A stretch of 6,440 bases of DNA from Candidatus Latescibacterota bacterium (GTDB lineage Bacteria; JAAXHH01; JACQVL01), in assembly GCA_016209865.1 (NCBI GenBank), contig JACQVL010000103.1, positions 1-6,440 on the forward strand. The letters run 5' to 3'. The notes under the pieces were generated by a model. That model did not search any database, had not been told where the DNA came from, and saw only the letters and a program-made list of their open reading frames with translations. Below are positions 1,812 through 6,440 of this stretch, piece after piece (position 1 is the first letter of the stretch; each line of letters starts with the position of its first letter). The position numbers and the translations under genes are program-made.

Positions 1812-2933
1812 TCAATAAGTCAACACGACTTGCAGGTTGACCAGATTGAGGTCCTTAAAATCAGTCAATCGCCAGAATTCATGATTCACTTTGATCATCA
1901 GATAAGACCGGGCGACGACCGTGATCCCGGCCGTCAGGCGCGTGATGCCCATCGACTCGTCCAACGCCTGTCCGACGACCGGGCCTTTGCGCAGCATGCC
2001 ATCCACCCGGGCGATGAACTCCAGGTGCGATTGAACCGGAAACTCGATCTCGGCATAAAACCCCGATTTGGCGAACGAGTCGCGGATCACCCCTCCCCCA
2101 GGAACTGGGATGTACACTTGGGTTTTGCGGCGCAGGTACTCCCCTCGCACGGTGAAGCGCTTCACCCTGGTCCTGAGTTCTGCGCCCGCAATCCAGTAGC
2201 CCAGGTCGCTGTCATCATCGTATGTGCCAGTCAAGAAGGAACCACCGATGATAAAGAGGTCGTACGGGGCGATCACCATACGTGCGCCGCCGACGGGAAA
2301 CGGGTTGTTGTCCCGGTATTCAGCCGACTGGACCCAGTTGATGTCGTTCGTCCCTTGCAGGCCGTTGACCAGGTAGAGGGCGTAAGACAGTTGCACGTTA
2401 TCGTTCGGCCAGTAGTTGCCGAACAGGTTGAGGCCGGTATCGGCATACGGGGTCATTAAGATGGAATAGTTGTGATCCAGCGGCCTGACTATGTGTCCCA
2501 TCATGTAGGGGAGCGGCTTGGAAGCGGTCTTATTGTTGGCCGGGTCGTGTCTGCTGTTGAACTCCCCAAAGGGCACGATGAAACGCCCGATCTCGACGTT
2601 CACCAGATCAGACGCGCTCACCTCGGCATACGCCTGGGAGACGCGGAACCCGTGGCATGACAGGCAGGTCTTCACGTTGATGGCGACGCGCTCCGAGAGG
2701 TTGACAGAGACCTTCTGCGCGGCTTCCAGGGTGAAGGTGTTCAGTCCTACTCTGTCAGCCTTGTTGAGCGTCTGCATGTACCCGTGCGCGTTGGTGGCAA
2801 GAGACCCCGACCACTTCCACCTCTCCTGCGCCGCGCTCGTTCCTATTTCAGCGAGAAGGCTGAGGAGAGTGAGAGTCATGCAGAAAGGGAGGGAGATTTT
2901 GGGCCTCAGACGATTGCGGATCGATACACCCAT
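1812..2933 (-). CDS. Outer-membrane porin-like beta-barrel with embedded haem c motif
   Basis: A 373-residue exported protein. Residues 1-35 are a signal peptide ending near TSAAQ. The rest alternates polar and hydrophobic residues as in beta-barrels. It ends in Tyr373 after VVLT, the aromatic C-terminus recognised by the BAM complex. IGRFIVPFGEFNSRHDPANN (115-134) matches the conserved early strand of phosphate-selective and DcaP-type porins (usually GRFxxPFG). Unusually, CLSCH (90-94), a complete haem c attachment motif, lies between the strands ending AINVK and starting RVSQAYAEV. The other histidines (49, 129, 147, 154, 303, 351) or methionines could supply the distal ligand. The ATG at 2933 has AGGA about 6 bases upstream, and the gene starts 25 bp after the lipoprotein cytochrome stop. 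A lone motif could occur by chance, but two cytochrome neighbours make haem binding likely. Its role as an outer-membrane electron pore is inference. Cyc2-type fusions differ in carrying an N-terminal cytochrome domain. Confidence 0.85.
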   Translation of the reverse strand: MGVSIRNRLRPKISLPFCMTLTLLSLLAEIGTSAAQERWKWSGSLATNAHGYMQTLNKADRVGLNTFTLEAAQKVSVNLSERVAINVKTCLSCHGFRVSQAYAEVSASDLVNVEIGRFIVPFGEFNSRHDPANNKTASKPLPYMMGHIVRPLDHNYSILMTPYADTGLNLFGNYWPNDNVQLSYALYLVNGLQGTNDINWVQSAEYRDNNPFPVGGARMVIAPYDLFIIGGSFLTGTYDDDSDLGYWIAGAELRTRVKRFTVRGEYLRRKTQVYIPVPGGGVIRDSFAKSGFYAEIEFPVQSHLEFIARVDGMLRKGPVVGQALDESMGITRLTAGITVVARSYLMIKVNHEFWRLTDFKDLNLVNLQVVLTY

Positions 2934-2958: not shown

Positions 2959-3408
2959 TCAATTGTTCAACGCGCCTTCATCGACCCAGGTCATGATCCG
3001 GGTGATCTCATCGTCCGACAACGGGAGGCCGCCGCGCGGCATCTGGGGAGGAATCACGCCCCTGATGCGTTTGACGATCAGGCTGCTGGCAGCGTCTCCC
3101 GGCACGACCACAGTCCCGCTGTCTCCTCCCGCCATCAAGACATCGTAGGACGTCACGTCGAGTCCACCCCGTTTGAATCTCCCCTGTTTGCCGTGACAGA
3201 GGATGCATTGTGCGTCAAAAATCGGCTGAATATCTCGACGGTACAAGACCGTGGGACGGGTAGTGGAATGATCGGGGCCGAAAACGTGATCCTCGTTCCA
3301 GTATTCACATCCGGCTGTCAGCAACACCAACAAGAGGGACAGAATGGATTCCCGCTTTCGTGGGAATGACAACGTATGGAACGGCAAGACCCTGTAGAGG
3401 GGTGACAT
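2959..3408 (-). CDS. Lipoprotein monohaem cytochrome c (planctomycete-type cytochrome domain)
   Basis: From the ATG at 3408 the product has 149 residues. The n-region contains PRKRES, the hydrophobic core is ILSLLLVLL, and the lipobox LTAGC places the lipidated Cys at residue 34, with Glu next, so an outer-membrane lipoprotein is likely. The mature part has DIQPIFDAQCILCHG with haem motif CILCH (68-72), a KRGGLDV segment, a glycine-rich GGDSG loop, and PPQMPRGG with Met123 as the likely distal ligand. It closes with DDEITRIMTWVDEGA, the usual end of PSCyt1-like (planctomycete cytochrome C) domains. The start is chosen for AGAAGAGG just upstream and for the signal peptide. The frame continues upstream to a GTG at 3513 that overlaps the preceding stop as GTGA, but those 35 extra residues come from repeat DNA and look like no signal sequence. 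The signal peptide is itself partly encoded by a REP-like palindrome. Confidence 0.85.
   Translation of the reverse strand: MSPLYRVLPFHTLSFPRKRESILSLLLVLLTAGCEYWNEDHVFGPDHSTTRPTVLYRRDIQPIFDAQCILCHGKQGRFKRGGLDVTSYDVLMAGGDSGTVVVPGDAASSLIVKRIRGVIPPQMPRGGLPLSDDEITRIMTWVDEGALNN
3348..3367. repeat. dRS3/REP-like palindrome inside a coding region
   Basis: The sequence is ATTCCC, eight bases (GCTTTCGT), then GGGAAT, exactly the ATTCCC-N8-GGGAAT pattern of dRS3 elements first described in Neisseria. With flanking GG and GAC it matches the widespread REP-like palindrome whose translation in one frame gives SFPRKRES. Here it is translated in that frame and supplies the basic n-region of the lipoprotein cytochrome signal peptide. 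Confidence 0.85.
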
Positions 3409-3437
3409 CAAACCTCTTCTCATCAGTTGATTTTCCA

Positions 3438-3500
3438 GAACCCCGTACCCCGTCATTGCAGTTGATGTTCCCGAACCCCGAACCCCGAATCCCGAACCCC
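3438..3500. repeat. GAACCCC heptanucleotide array, partly degenerate
   Basis: Four tandem heptamers run from 3473 to 3500: GAACCCC, GAACCCC, GAATCCC, GAACCCC. Two more, GAACCCC and GTACCCC, lie at 3438-3451, exactly three heptamer lengths (21 bp) before position 3473, so the whole 63 bp keeps one 7-bp phase with the middle units degenerate. It occupies most of the 101 bp between the second FG-GAP gene (stop at 3510) and the chosen start of the lipoprotein cytochrome (3408). It resembles short tandemly repeated heptamers known from cyanobacteria. Confidence 0.8.
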
Positions 3501-3509
3501 GAGTTTCCT

Positions 3510-5285
3510 TCACTTCGTCAACAGCATCCGGCGGGTCGCGGTGAACCCGCCCGCCCGGAGGGTATACAGGTAGATTCCGCTCCCGGCCGGCTCTCCGCGC
3601 CCGTTCCGGCCGTCCCAGCGGACGGCGTAGTACCCGCGTGGCTGTTCCCCATCGACCAGGACGGCGACTTCTTCGCCGAGGAGGTTATAGACGGTGAGGG
3701 TCACACGACCCGTCCTGGCCAAACGATATGCAATCTCCGTGCCAGCGTTGAACGGGTTGGGAACATTCTGGGCGAGGTCGAACCGATCAGGCGGAACGAC
3801 GGTCACGACCAGCGGGCCGAAGACCTGCCGGCTTCCGTCATGGCCGGTCGCTTCCAGCCAGTAGGTGTAGACGCGGCCGGGTTGCACGTCCGTATCGACG
3901 AACCGGTGACGCCCAAGCCCGGTGATGGGGGCAGAAGTCCTCCTGCTGCTTCCGTCGAGTCGGGCTCCGCCGCTCTGGACACTGCCCGATTGCCGGTAGA
4001 CGAAGATGGCAACGCCGGACGTGGCGGTCTCCCAGGCAATCTCGACCGTCCCGTCGTCGAGGATGGTCGCTCCCAGGCCGGTGACGGCGATGCCGACCGG
4101 TTTTGCGACGTCGTTGAGGAGGACGGTCAGGGTATCATTGTCTTTGTTGGCGATCACCAAATCCTGATCCCCGTCGTGATCCAGGTCGGCCGCGACGAGG
4201 GATCGCAACGAGATGCCGAACTCAAAGGGAATCGTCATCGGGTCGGCGAACTCTCCCCGTCCGTTCCCGCGATAGAGCATCAGGTCATCTGAGAAGCCAT
4301 GCACCAGGGCGATATCGGCGTGTCCGTCCCCATCCAGGTCGGTCGCGGCGACGGCCGCCGCCATCTCCCCGGCCGCTAAGTAGAGCGGGTCACGAAACGT
4401 GCCCTCTGTCTGGCCTAAGTAGACGGAGAGTCCGGGCTGGCCCGTGCCGGCCCGCCGGTTGGCGACGACCAGGTCGAGCTGGCCGTCCTCGTTCAGGTCA
4501 GCGGCGGCGAGATGGACCGGCCCCGGCCTGGTGGTCAGGGTAATGGGATCGTTGAAACTCCCGTCCCCCTTGCCCGTGAAGACGAAGATCGTGGCGGCTA
4601 AAAAGTTGGCTGCCACCAGGTCGGTCTTCCCGTCTCCGGTCAGGTCGGCGGCGAGGAGGGCCCGGGGGGAACGGCCCAGTAAGCGCGTCTCTCGTTCGGT
4701 GAAGTGGCCGGCTGGCGTCTGGAGCAGGATGGACACATCCCCCGGCACCGGCGTATGGCCTGCCCGGTTGGCCACAGCCAGGTCGAGCCGTCCATCCCCG
4801 TCGAAATCCGCCGCCACGACCGCTGAGGGAGTAGCCCCAGCCTGGTACTCGACCGGACTGGCAAACTCACCCTGCCCGTTGCCGTAGAGGATGGAAACAG
4901 TGTTCGTTCTATAATTGGTCACGATGAGATCGAGCGCCCCATCGCGGTTCAGGTCTGCGGCCGTGAGGCTCGTCGGCCGGCGATCATCTCCCAGGGGGAA
5001 GTCGAGCCGGGACGGGAACCCGCCTTTGCCGTTGCCGATGAAGACCGACACGTCGCTCGACCCCCGGTTGCACACCCCTATGTCGAGGTGTCCATCCCGG
5101 TTGAAATCCCCCGTCACCAGGTAGAACGGCTGATCGCGGGTCGGGAGCACGACGGGGGGAGCGAACCGGAACTGAGCGTGGCTGTGGGAGGGGAGGAAGA
5201 ACAGGAGAAAGAGAGAAGTCCAGCTCAACCAGTGACGAGTGACGAGTGACGAGTGACGAGTAAGAACGAAGAGCGGACGTATCAC
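3510..5285 (-). CDS. Exported seven-repeat FG-GAP/VCBS protein with C-terminal sorting-type domain
   Basis: A complete 591-residue surface or secreted protein. Residues 1-37 form a signal peptide with core SLFLLFFLPSHSHA. Seven FG-GAP/VCBS repeats carry DxDxDGxxD calcium loops starting at Asp60, 111, 160, 214, 263, 316 and 367, about 50 residues apart, as expected for one seven-bladed beta-propeller. Residues about 397-498 look like a fibronectin III/Ig-type domain (TVEIAWET, YTYWLEAT). Residues 502-591 are a FlgD-Ig/Por-secretion-tail type domain: QNVPNPFN (506-513), then VYNLLGEEV, GYYAVRWDGRNGRG, SGIYLYTLRAGG, and a basic end. Such tails direct proteins to type IX secretion in Bacteroidota, but they also occur in phyla where that use is unproven. 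The GTG at 5285 overlaps the preceding TGA as GTGA, indicating translational coupling. A heptamer array encodes residues about 9-18, supplying the Arg residues of the n-region. Ligand or partner is unknown. Confidence 0.9.
   Translation of the reverse strand: MIRPLFVLTRHSSLVTRHWLSWTSLFLLFFLPSHSHAQFRFAPPVVLPTRDQPFYLVTGDFNRDGHLDIGVCNRGSSDVSVFIGNGKGGFPSRLDFPLGDDRRPTSLTAADLNRDGALDLIVTNYRTNTVSILYGNGQGEFASPVEYQAGATPSAVVAADFDGDGRLDLAVANRAGHTPVPGDVSILLQTPAGHFTERETRLLGRSPRALLAADLTGDGKTDLVAANFLAATIFVFTGKGDGSFNDPITLTTRPGPVHLAAADLNEDGQLDLVVANRRAGTGQPGLSVYLGQTEGTFRDPLYLAAGEMAAAVAATDLDGDGHADIALVHGFSDDLMLYRGNGRGEFADPMTIPFEFGISLRSLVAADLDHDGDQDLVIANKDNDTLTVLLNDVAKPVGIAVTGLGATILDDGTVEIAWETATSGVAIFVYRQSGSVQSGGARLDGSSRRTSAPITGLGRHRFVDTDVQPGRVYTYWLEATGHDGSRQVFGPLVVTVVPPDRFDLAQNVPNPFNAGTEIAYRLARTGRVTLTVYNLLGEEVAVLVDGEQPRGYYAVRWDGRNGRGEPAGSGIYLYTLRAGGFTATRRMLLTK
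5231..5261. repeat. AGTGACG heptanucleotide array within a signal-peptide coding region
   Basis: Four perfect tandem AGTGACG units (5231-5258) are followed by a partial AGT. On the minus strand they lie between the GTG start at 5285 and the hydrophobic core of the signal peptide and are translated as a TRHSSLV-type periodic peptide. Because the unit is 7 bp, gain or loss of one copy would shift the reading frame relative to the GTG start. A TTG at 5228, just after the array, is the only nearby in-frame alternative. Confidence 0.92.
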
Positions 5286-6440
5286 AGTGGGGTCCGATTC
5301 AACAGCACGAAGACGCTGTCGGAATCACGGCTGGGGACGATCAGGTCGAGGCGGCCGTCGCGGTCGAGGTCGACCGCCAGGACGGCGCGGGGCGTCTGGC
5401 CGACCTCCGCGCTGACGACGACCGGGGCGCTGAACCCGCCGCGACCGTCACCGAGGAGGACGACGAGGTTATCGGGCGCGTTGTTGGCGACCGCCAGATC
5501 GACCGCGCCGTCGCCGTTCAGGTCGGCCGCCGCGATCCCGGCCGGATGGCCGCCCGCATCCCATTCGGTGGGGGCGATGAAGTGTCCTTTTCCATCGCCC
5601 ATGAAGAGCAACAACCGTCCCTGCTCGTTGATGCCGGGGGCCTCATCCCCGGACGCCCGATCCGAGACCGCCCGATCGGCGACGACCAGGTCGAGCGTCC
5701 CGTCCCGATTGACGTCCGTGCTCAGGAGCATCGTCGGCCCGTCCCCGGCGGCGAGGGTCAGCGAGTCCGCGAACGCGCCGCGTCCATCCCCGAACCGAAC
5801 GGTCACAGTGCCGCCGACGCGGTTGGCCGTCGCTAAGTCGGGTGCTCCGTCCTTATTCAGGTCGGCTGCGATCACGTCGCGCGGACCTTTGCCCATCCGC
5901 AGCAGAACTGGTCCGGTGAACTGGCCGCGCCCATCGTTCAGGTAGAACGACAACCGCCCCGATTCCCGTCCAGCGACGGCGAGGTCGGGGGTTGTATCCC
6001 CGTTCAGGTCGGCGACCGCGACCGCCTGCGGCCCCCGACTGATGGGCAGGCTGGCCGATTGTGGGAATCGTCCCTTCCCATCCCCGAACAGGAGGGTCAA
6101 GTCGCCGGATTCCCGGTTGGCGATGACGAGATCGAGCGCTTTGTCCCCGTTCAAGTCGGCGCAGACGGCGAACCGGGGGGACCGTCCGGTGGGATATTCC
6201 GTCGGAACAGAAAAATTCCCGCGTCCGTCTCCAAACAGAATAGAGACACAATGACCGTCCTTGTCCGGTACCGCAAGGTCGAGGAGGCCATCTCCGTTCA
6301 GGTCGGCCGCGGCCGCGACGAACGGTCCTTTGCCGGCCGGAAAGGCACGCGGGGGCGAGAAGACGACTTGGGCGCTGACGCTGGGCAGAGTGATGAAGAG
6401 GACAAGAAGAGCGACGACTACTGACCACTGACCACTGACC
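5282..6440 (-). CDS. Exported seven-repeat FG-GAP/VCBS protein, start beyond the right edge
   Basis: The frame is open from the right edge (codons from 6439) to TGA at 5284-5282, giving 385 visible residues. A TTG at 6154 looks like a start but falls inside a calcium loop (ADLNGD), so it is internal. The visible N-terminus VSGQWSVVVALLVLFITLP then SVSAQ is the end of a signal peptide. There is no ATG, GTG or TTG in frame within the visible part before its core, so the true start is upstream. Seven DxDxDGxxD-type loops begin at visible residues 46, 95, 144, 193, 242, 306 and 357. The first five are exactly 49 apart, and a 15-residue insert (around SDRASGDEAPG) enlarges the next step. This predicts a complete seven-bladed propeller. 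Loops two and three (NGDKALD, NGDTTPD) lack the usual Gly. The protein stops right after the last blade with no sorting domain, unlike its neighbour. It is the upstream gene of a GTGA-coupled pair. Confidence 0.88.
   Translation of the reverse strand, partial: VSGQWSVVVALLVLFITLPSVSAQVVFSPPRAFPAGKGPFVAAAADLNGDGLLDLAVPDKDGHCVSILFGDGRGNFSVPTEYPTGRSPRFAVCADLNGDKALDLVIANRESGDLTLLFGDGKGRFPQSASLPISRGPQAVAVADLNGDTTPDLAVAGRESGRLSFYLNDGRGQFTGPVLLRMGKGPRDVIAADLNKDGAPDLATANRVGGTVTVRFGDGRGAFADSLTLAAGDGPTMLLSTDVNRDGTLDLVVADRAVSDRASGDEAPGINEQGRLLLFMGDGKGHFIAPTEWDAGGHPAGIAAADLNGDGAVDLAVANNAPDNLVVLLGDGRGGFSAPVVVSAEVGQTPRAVLAVDLDRDGRLDLIVPSRDSDSVFVLLNRTPL
6417..6440. repeat. ACTGACC heptanucleotide array reaching the window edge
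   Basis: Three perfect ACTGACC units (6420-6440) run to the window edge, preceded by a partial ACT. On the minus strand (unit GGTCAGT) they encode residues just before the signal-peptide core of the first FG-GAP protein, the same placement as the AGTGACG array in the next gene. Confidence 0.85.

Follow-up and report, generated by a model that had tools for sequence, protein, structure and literature searches.

The locus described here raises the question of whether an outer-membrane barrel can hold a haem c in its own wall, between two of its strands, and what such a protein might do. In the window (the whole stretch of DNA that was analysed, 6,440 nucleotides), an open reading frame on the minus strand (1812-2933) encodes a protein of 373 aa, which starts with a signal-peptide-like stretch (MGVSIRNRLRPK... 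in the ORF translation) and ends with an aromatic residue, Y373. Residues 90-94 (2652-2666, minus strand), preceded by SVNLSERVAINVKT, read CLSCH, a haem c attachment motif; the presence of this motif in a porin with an aromatic C-terminus had been pointed out in a preliminary description of the sequence and was confirmed. The porin has no match in Pfam and none above the cut-off in NCBIfam, and therefore it would be overlooked in annotation. We propose, with a probability of roughly two in three, that it is the barrel of a trans-outer-membrane electron conduit in which the barrel itself carries the covalently attached haem c; the support for the conduit function consists of gene context and conservation.

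The AF2 model of the window porin (28 sequences, pLDDT 83) comprises 16 strands, with short turns of the periplasmic type at residues 78-83 and 106-112, and places CLSCH at the tip of the hairpin formed by β3 (83-92) and β4 (95-106), i.e. in loop 2, at the end of the barrel that bears the long loops. The model of the member from Anaeromyxobacter oryzae (L077, 5833-6954, plus strand; 40 sequences, pLDDT 91) likewise has its motif (CATCH, residues 77-81) at the tip of the β3-β4 hairpin on the long-loop side, between strands 70-79 and 82-95. The long loops of porins are by established topology extracellular, and the location of CxxCH predicted from the models is on the extracellular side of the barrel, in agreement with the strand count from which the preliminary description had placed the motif opposite the periplasmic turns. 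According to the averaged alternation of hydrophobicity, residues 83, 85, 87 and 89 face the lipid and residues 84, 86, K88 and C90 face the lumen, while the parity of β4 directly after the motif is ambiguous. Further along the chain, the porin signature GRFIVPFG (residues 116-123; 2565-2588, minus strand) occupies β5 and leads into loop 3, which contains the sequence PLPYMMG with M145 (2499-2501, minus strand). The best fold matches among solved porins are the phosphate-selective porins OprO and OprP (Z-scores 27.8 and 27.6; rmsd 2.7 over 299 aligned residues for the better match), with only 14-15% sequence identity to the window porin. Together, the 16 modelled strands, the signal peptide, Y373 and the fold matches identify the protein as a 16-stranded outer-membrane porin. 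OprO and OprP are solute channels and to our knowledge do not carry haem. Membership in the phosphate-selective porin O/P family (PF07396) was rejected, as the window protein gave no match to it and its relatives matched only below the cut-off.

For the analysis of conservation, 71 full-length relatives were reduced to 42 non-redundant sequences (<90% identity), with a mean pairwise identity of 40% and a minimum of 28%. C90, C93, H94 and G95 are invariant (100%) in this set, K88 is conserved in 95% of the sequences, and in 39 of the 42 the motif pair are the only cysteines past the signal region. Apart from H94, a single His or Met is invariant, namely M145 of loop 3, which bears on the question of a second His or Met raised in the preliminary description and makes this residue a candidate distal axial ligand of the haem. 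The same description had proposed to look for co-conservation of CxxCH and GRFxxPFG; the former is indeed invariant, but of the latter only G116, R117 and G123 are. All members among the 44 loci of a scan of named genomes, for which the motif region served as one of two patterns, retain CxxCHG and P[LM]x[YF]xMG. In searches independent of the motif (protein or profile), CxxCH was found in every full-length relative, and of the members scoring more than 240 bits, each one with a retrieved locus retains it. The tree of the family is deep, with end branches of up to 1.2 changes per site; the window porin groups in it with a copy (L060) from the same genome as another relative, L006. A conserved CxxCH is what is expected of a c-type cytochrome, and we regard it as near certain that the motif is real and under selection. 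CLSCH very probably binds haem c.

The next-best porins found with the profile (58-96 bits) all lack CxxCH, and they also lack M145 where loop 3 can be aligned, although the gaps in this loop weaken the half of the comparison that concerns M145. This group of sister porins (L002-L005 and similar), which includes a paralogue encoded in the same genome as the window porin (L002), shows about 25-31% identity over the matched part, and its members have, unlike the window porin, neither CxxCH nor an equivalent of M145 in the alignments. CxxCH and the methionine of loop 3 thus occur together and are absent together, on the basis of which we propose His/Met ligation, with the reservation that the alignment of loop 3 is gappy. 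The sister porins L002-L004, from the window's genome and from order-level relatives, adjoin genes for a Rieske protein and a dihaem oxidoreductase-like cytochrome.

A search with the single protein in 384 genomes across the domain revealed two full-length relatives, L006 and L007 (40% and 37% identity), both with CxxCH at the equivalent place and with the same two cytochrome neighbours as in the window (see below); the other matches in this search were partial and did not exceed 50 bits. The initial scan of the genome collection with a single protein gave no matches, and a profile of 3 and then of 28 sequences was required. When 195 genomes from the phylum of genome G190 were searched with the profile, 29 gave a match; 28 of these contain members of the family, and one a porin without the motif (L058, 96 bits). 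The scan of named genomes reported Anaeromyxobacter species, Myxococcaceae, Archangium, Polyangiaceae and a few other bacteria; since these names dominate it, we assume that G190 belongs to the Myxococcota. Searches of plasmids and of the sequences of solved structures returned nothing useful.

In the window, the porin gene lies between two genes for c-type cytochromes, all three being tightly spaced on the minus strand in the order PSCyt1-like lipoprotein, porin, small cytochrome. The PSCyt1-like cytochrome c lipoprotein (2959-3513; lipobox LTAGC, CILCH at 3193-3207) is encoded 25 bp upstream of the porin, and its start is uncertain, probably downstream of 3513. The small monohaem c-type cytochrome (1389-1811; CRTCH at 1578-1592), which is weakly SorB-like, follows directly after the stop codon of the porin and likely starts at the ATG at 1784. 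Both partners are present on the strand of the porin within 3.5 kb in 27 of 46 loci, and at least one of them in 44; the two exceptions (L073 and L089) end at a contig or locus edge near the porin. A PSCyt partner was not recognised within 3.5 kb in 16 of the 46 loci, some of which end early. In Myxococcaceae/Archangium CxxCH occurs twice in the downstream cytochrome, and these loci yielded no PSCyt partner. No close homologue was found that lacks CxxCH beside the same neighbours, a finding that would have spoken against the preliminary description.

In seven loci of the Anaeromyxobacteraceae type, the cassette is adjoined by a decahaem member of the OmcA/MtrC family (TIGR03507, over the cut-off). 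Additionally, in L094 a single open frame (3012-5930, plus strand) fuses an OmcA/MtrC-type decahaem protein to a PSCyt domain, which suggests that the PSCyt partner belongs at the cell surface. The haem motifs of the PSCyt1-like proteins vary between CxCH, CX4CH and CxxCH within one alignable domain: CxCH (CGCH or CSCH) is found in one clade (partners listed: L062, L064, L065, L067, L069, L070 and L071), and CX4CH (CATxxCH) in Anaeromyxobacteraceae (loci such as L077, 5511-5834) and in some Myxococcaceae, with CxxCH in the others. In L006 (296-1459, minus strand) the small cytochrome runs into a long C-terminal extension, which by eye appears transglutaminase-like.

We infer the attachment of the haem, its His/Met ligation, the placement of the partners and the flow and direction of electrons as follows. 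The cytochrome c assembly machinery would attach the haem in the periplasm, before insertion of the barrel, with C90 and C93 holding the vinyl groups and H94 as the proximal ligand, while M145 of loop 3 would be the likely distal ligand. The haem would then sit in or just above the constriction of the pore, between the β3-β4 hairpin and loop 3; we give about even chances to this location in the eyelet with M145 as a ligand. On the periplasmic side, the small monohaem cytochrome may exchange electrons with the haem of the barrel, and at the outer face the PSCyt1-like lipoprotein may take over, joined in Anaeromyxobacteraceae by the OmcA/MtrC-type decahaem cytochrome. The direction would likely be outward in Fe(III)-reducing Anaeromyxobacter, whereas uptake is possible elsewhere. 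According to the preliminary description, the porin would be a minimal one-haem outer-membrane electron pore; this picture is too simple, because the porin gene is conserved in company with the genes of two further haem proteins and, in Anaeromyxobacteraceae, often with that of a decahaem cytochrome of the surface type.

Several other explanations of the motif were considered. That CxxCH arose by chance in an ordinary porin might seem to accord with its absence from the distant porins, including the paralogue in the same genome; however, the 100% conservation over a deep tree and the conserved cytochrome cassette refute this explanation, to which we assign a negligible probability. A more serious alternative is a haem-free channel for metals or anions, in which C90, C93 and H94 of loop 2 would make up a disulfide or a site for a metal (Cu, Zn or Fe). 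In exported proteins, CxxC is often part of a disulfide or of a metal site, and small hairpins are atypical carriers of haem. Yet H94 and G95 are invariant along with both cysteines, as fits CxxCHG, the candidate distal methionine is invariant as well, both partners are cytochromes of the c type, and the window's genome encodes proteins of cytochrome c assembly, all of which makes a haem-free site improbable.

Somewhat less improbable, but still unlikely in our opinion, is that the haem is bound and the porin is not a conduit: it could be a substrate channel in which the haem serves in gating or in sensing of a ligand (O2, NO or peroxide), or a redox enzyme of the cell surface, with the cytochromes serving that reaction. 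The fold is shared with the OprO/OprP solute channels, and several members come from Myxococcaceae/Archangium, families that are largely aerobic and have no obvious need for extracellular electron transfer. On the other hand, the two conserved c-type cytochrome partners and the adjoining OmcA/MtrC proteins favour electron transfer, and an invariant methionine would result in a six-coordinate haem, a better fit to electron transfer than to catalysis. The electron conduit, which we prefer, has difficulties of its own: one haem and the docked partners must span a membrane of about 4 nm, which is near the limit of a tunnelling step, and a hairpin loaded with haem would need to pass through the BAM insertion machinery.

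Among known proteins, Cyc2 and Cyt572 of iron oxidisers resemble the window porin in combining one CxxCH and an outer-membrane barrel of 16-17 strands in a single chain. In Cyc2 the haem is located in an N-terminal cytochrome domain that precedes the barrel, with the sequence AXPXFAR[Q/K][T/Y] upstream of CxxCH (PMC8406198, PMC10654088); this domain has been modelled as a periplasmic plug, and the pore has been likened to phosphate porins (PMC8406198). The window porin differs from Cyc2 in that its CxxCH is inside the barrel, after strands 1-3, in a hairpin on the extracellular side, and in that its loop 3 offers a methionine as a candidate ligand. Membership in the Cyc2 family was rejected, given this position of CxxCH and the absence of AXPXFAR[Q/K][T/Y] from the alignment of the family.

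The MtrAB(C), PioAB and Pcc systems also combine a porin with c-type cytochromes, and the OmcA/MtrC-family neighbour of the Anaeromyxobacteraceae porins adds to the likeness. In these systems a larger barrel, itself free of haem, sheaths a separate multihaem cytochrome (PMC4245776, PMC7198977), whereas the window barrel has 16 strands and a haem motif of its own, and its partners in the window are monohaem. The porin could not be assigned to the MtrB/PioB family (PF11854), as it has no Pfam match, and a conduit of the Mtr/Pio/Pcc type was rejected as well, since the partners in the window have one CxxCH each and the decahaem neighbour in the relatives belongs to the OmcA/MtrC family. The distinction from both Cyc2 and Mtr/Pio drawn in the preliminary description is thus borne out by the motif inside the barrel and by these failed assignments. 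The nearest precedent, in which haem motifs are predicted between barrel strands, is GM18_3465 from Geobacter sp. M18, a predicted porin-like protein with 10 haems, motifs in long loops and 21 predicted strands, whose loops were proposed to form a cytochrome domain; it was reported as a single case (PMC4245776). Compared with it, the window porin has one motif, which lies in a tight hairpin and is constant throughout a large family. A literature search, whose coverage excluded most subscription journals, so that a description elsewhere is possible, found no account of this porin family, and within the literature searched the haem-in-hairpin architecture is undescribed among outer-membrane porin-cytochromes. 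The porin probably represents a hitherto undescribed type of electrical feed-through in the outer membrane of Myxococcota and a small number of other bacteria.

In the known designs, either a multihaem protein runs as a wire through a barrel that is itself empty, or a cytochrome is fused at the N-terminus of the barrel; a haem held by a hairpin would, if true, be a third and small design. We give even odds to the reading that the porin represents a new class of conduit, in which a haem c on a hairpin of the wall and a Met of the constriction loop form a relay in the eyelet between periplasmic monohaem and surface cytochromes, serving OmcA/MtrC-type proteins in bacteria without MtrB. Three genomes of the Myxococcota type (G190, G416 and G484) indeed contain OmcA/MtrC (TIGR03507, over the cut-off) and no match to MtrB/PioB. 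If the proposal is true, it suggests an outer-membrane electron route for Anaeromyxobacter and relatives that have OmcA/MtrC and lack MtrB. The window's genome shows the opposite, i.e. an MtrB/PioB-like protein (PF11854) and no OmcA/MtrC match. The MtrB/PioB-like barrel is encoded beside a protein with 11 CxxCH motifs and several smaller cytochromes. This cluster (L113, G000:C134, 900-6414, minus strand) is an apparent second conduit, and therefore the porin with the haem motif need not be the sole one in this genome.

As to the remainder of the window, no RNA element was found with Rfam, and scans for promoters and terminators gave results at chance level. Downstream of the cassette, the minus strand encodes a protein of the uroporphyrinogen decarboxylase/MtaA-like methyltransferase family (270-1313). 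On the other side, it encodes two propeller proteins of the FG-GAP type (3510-5285 and 5282-6439, the second judged by eye), the first of which has a C-terminal tail like those of type IX secretion.
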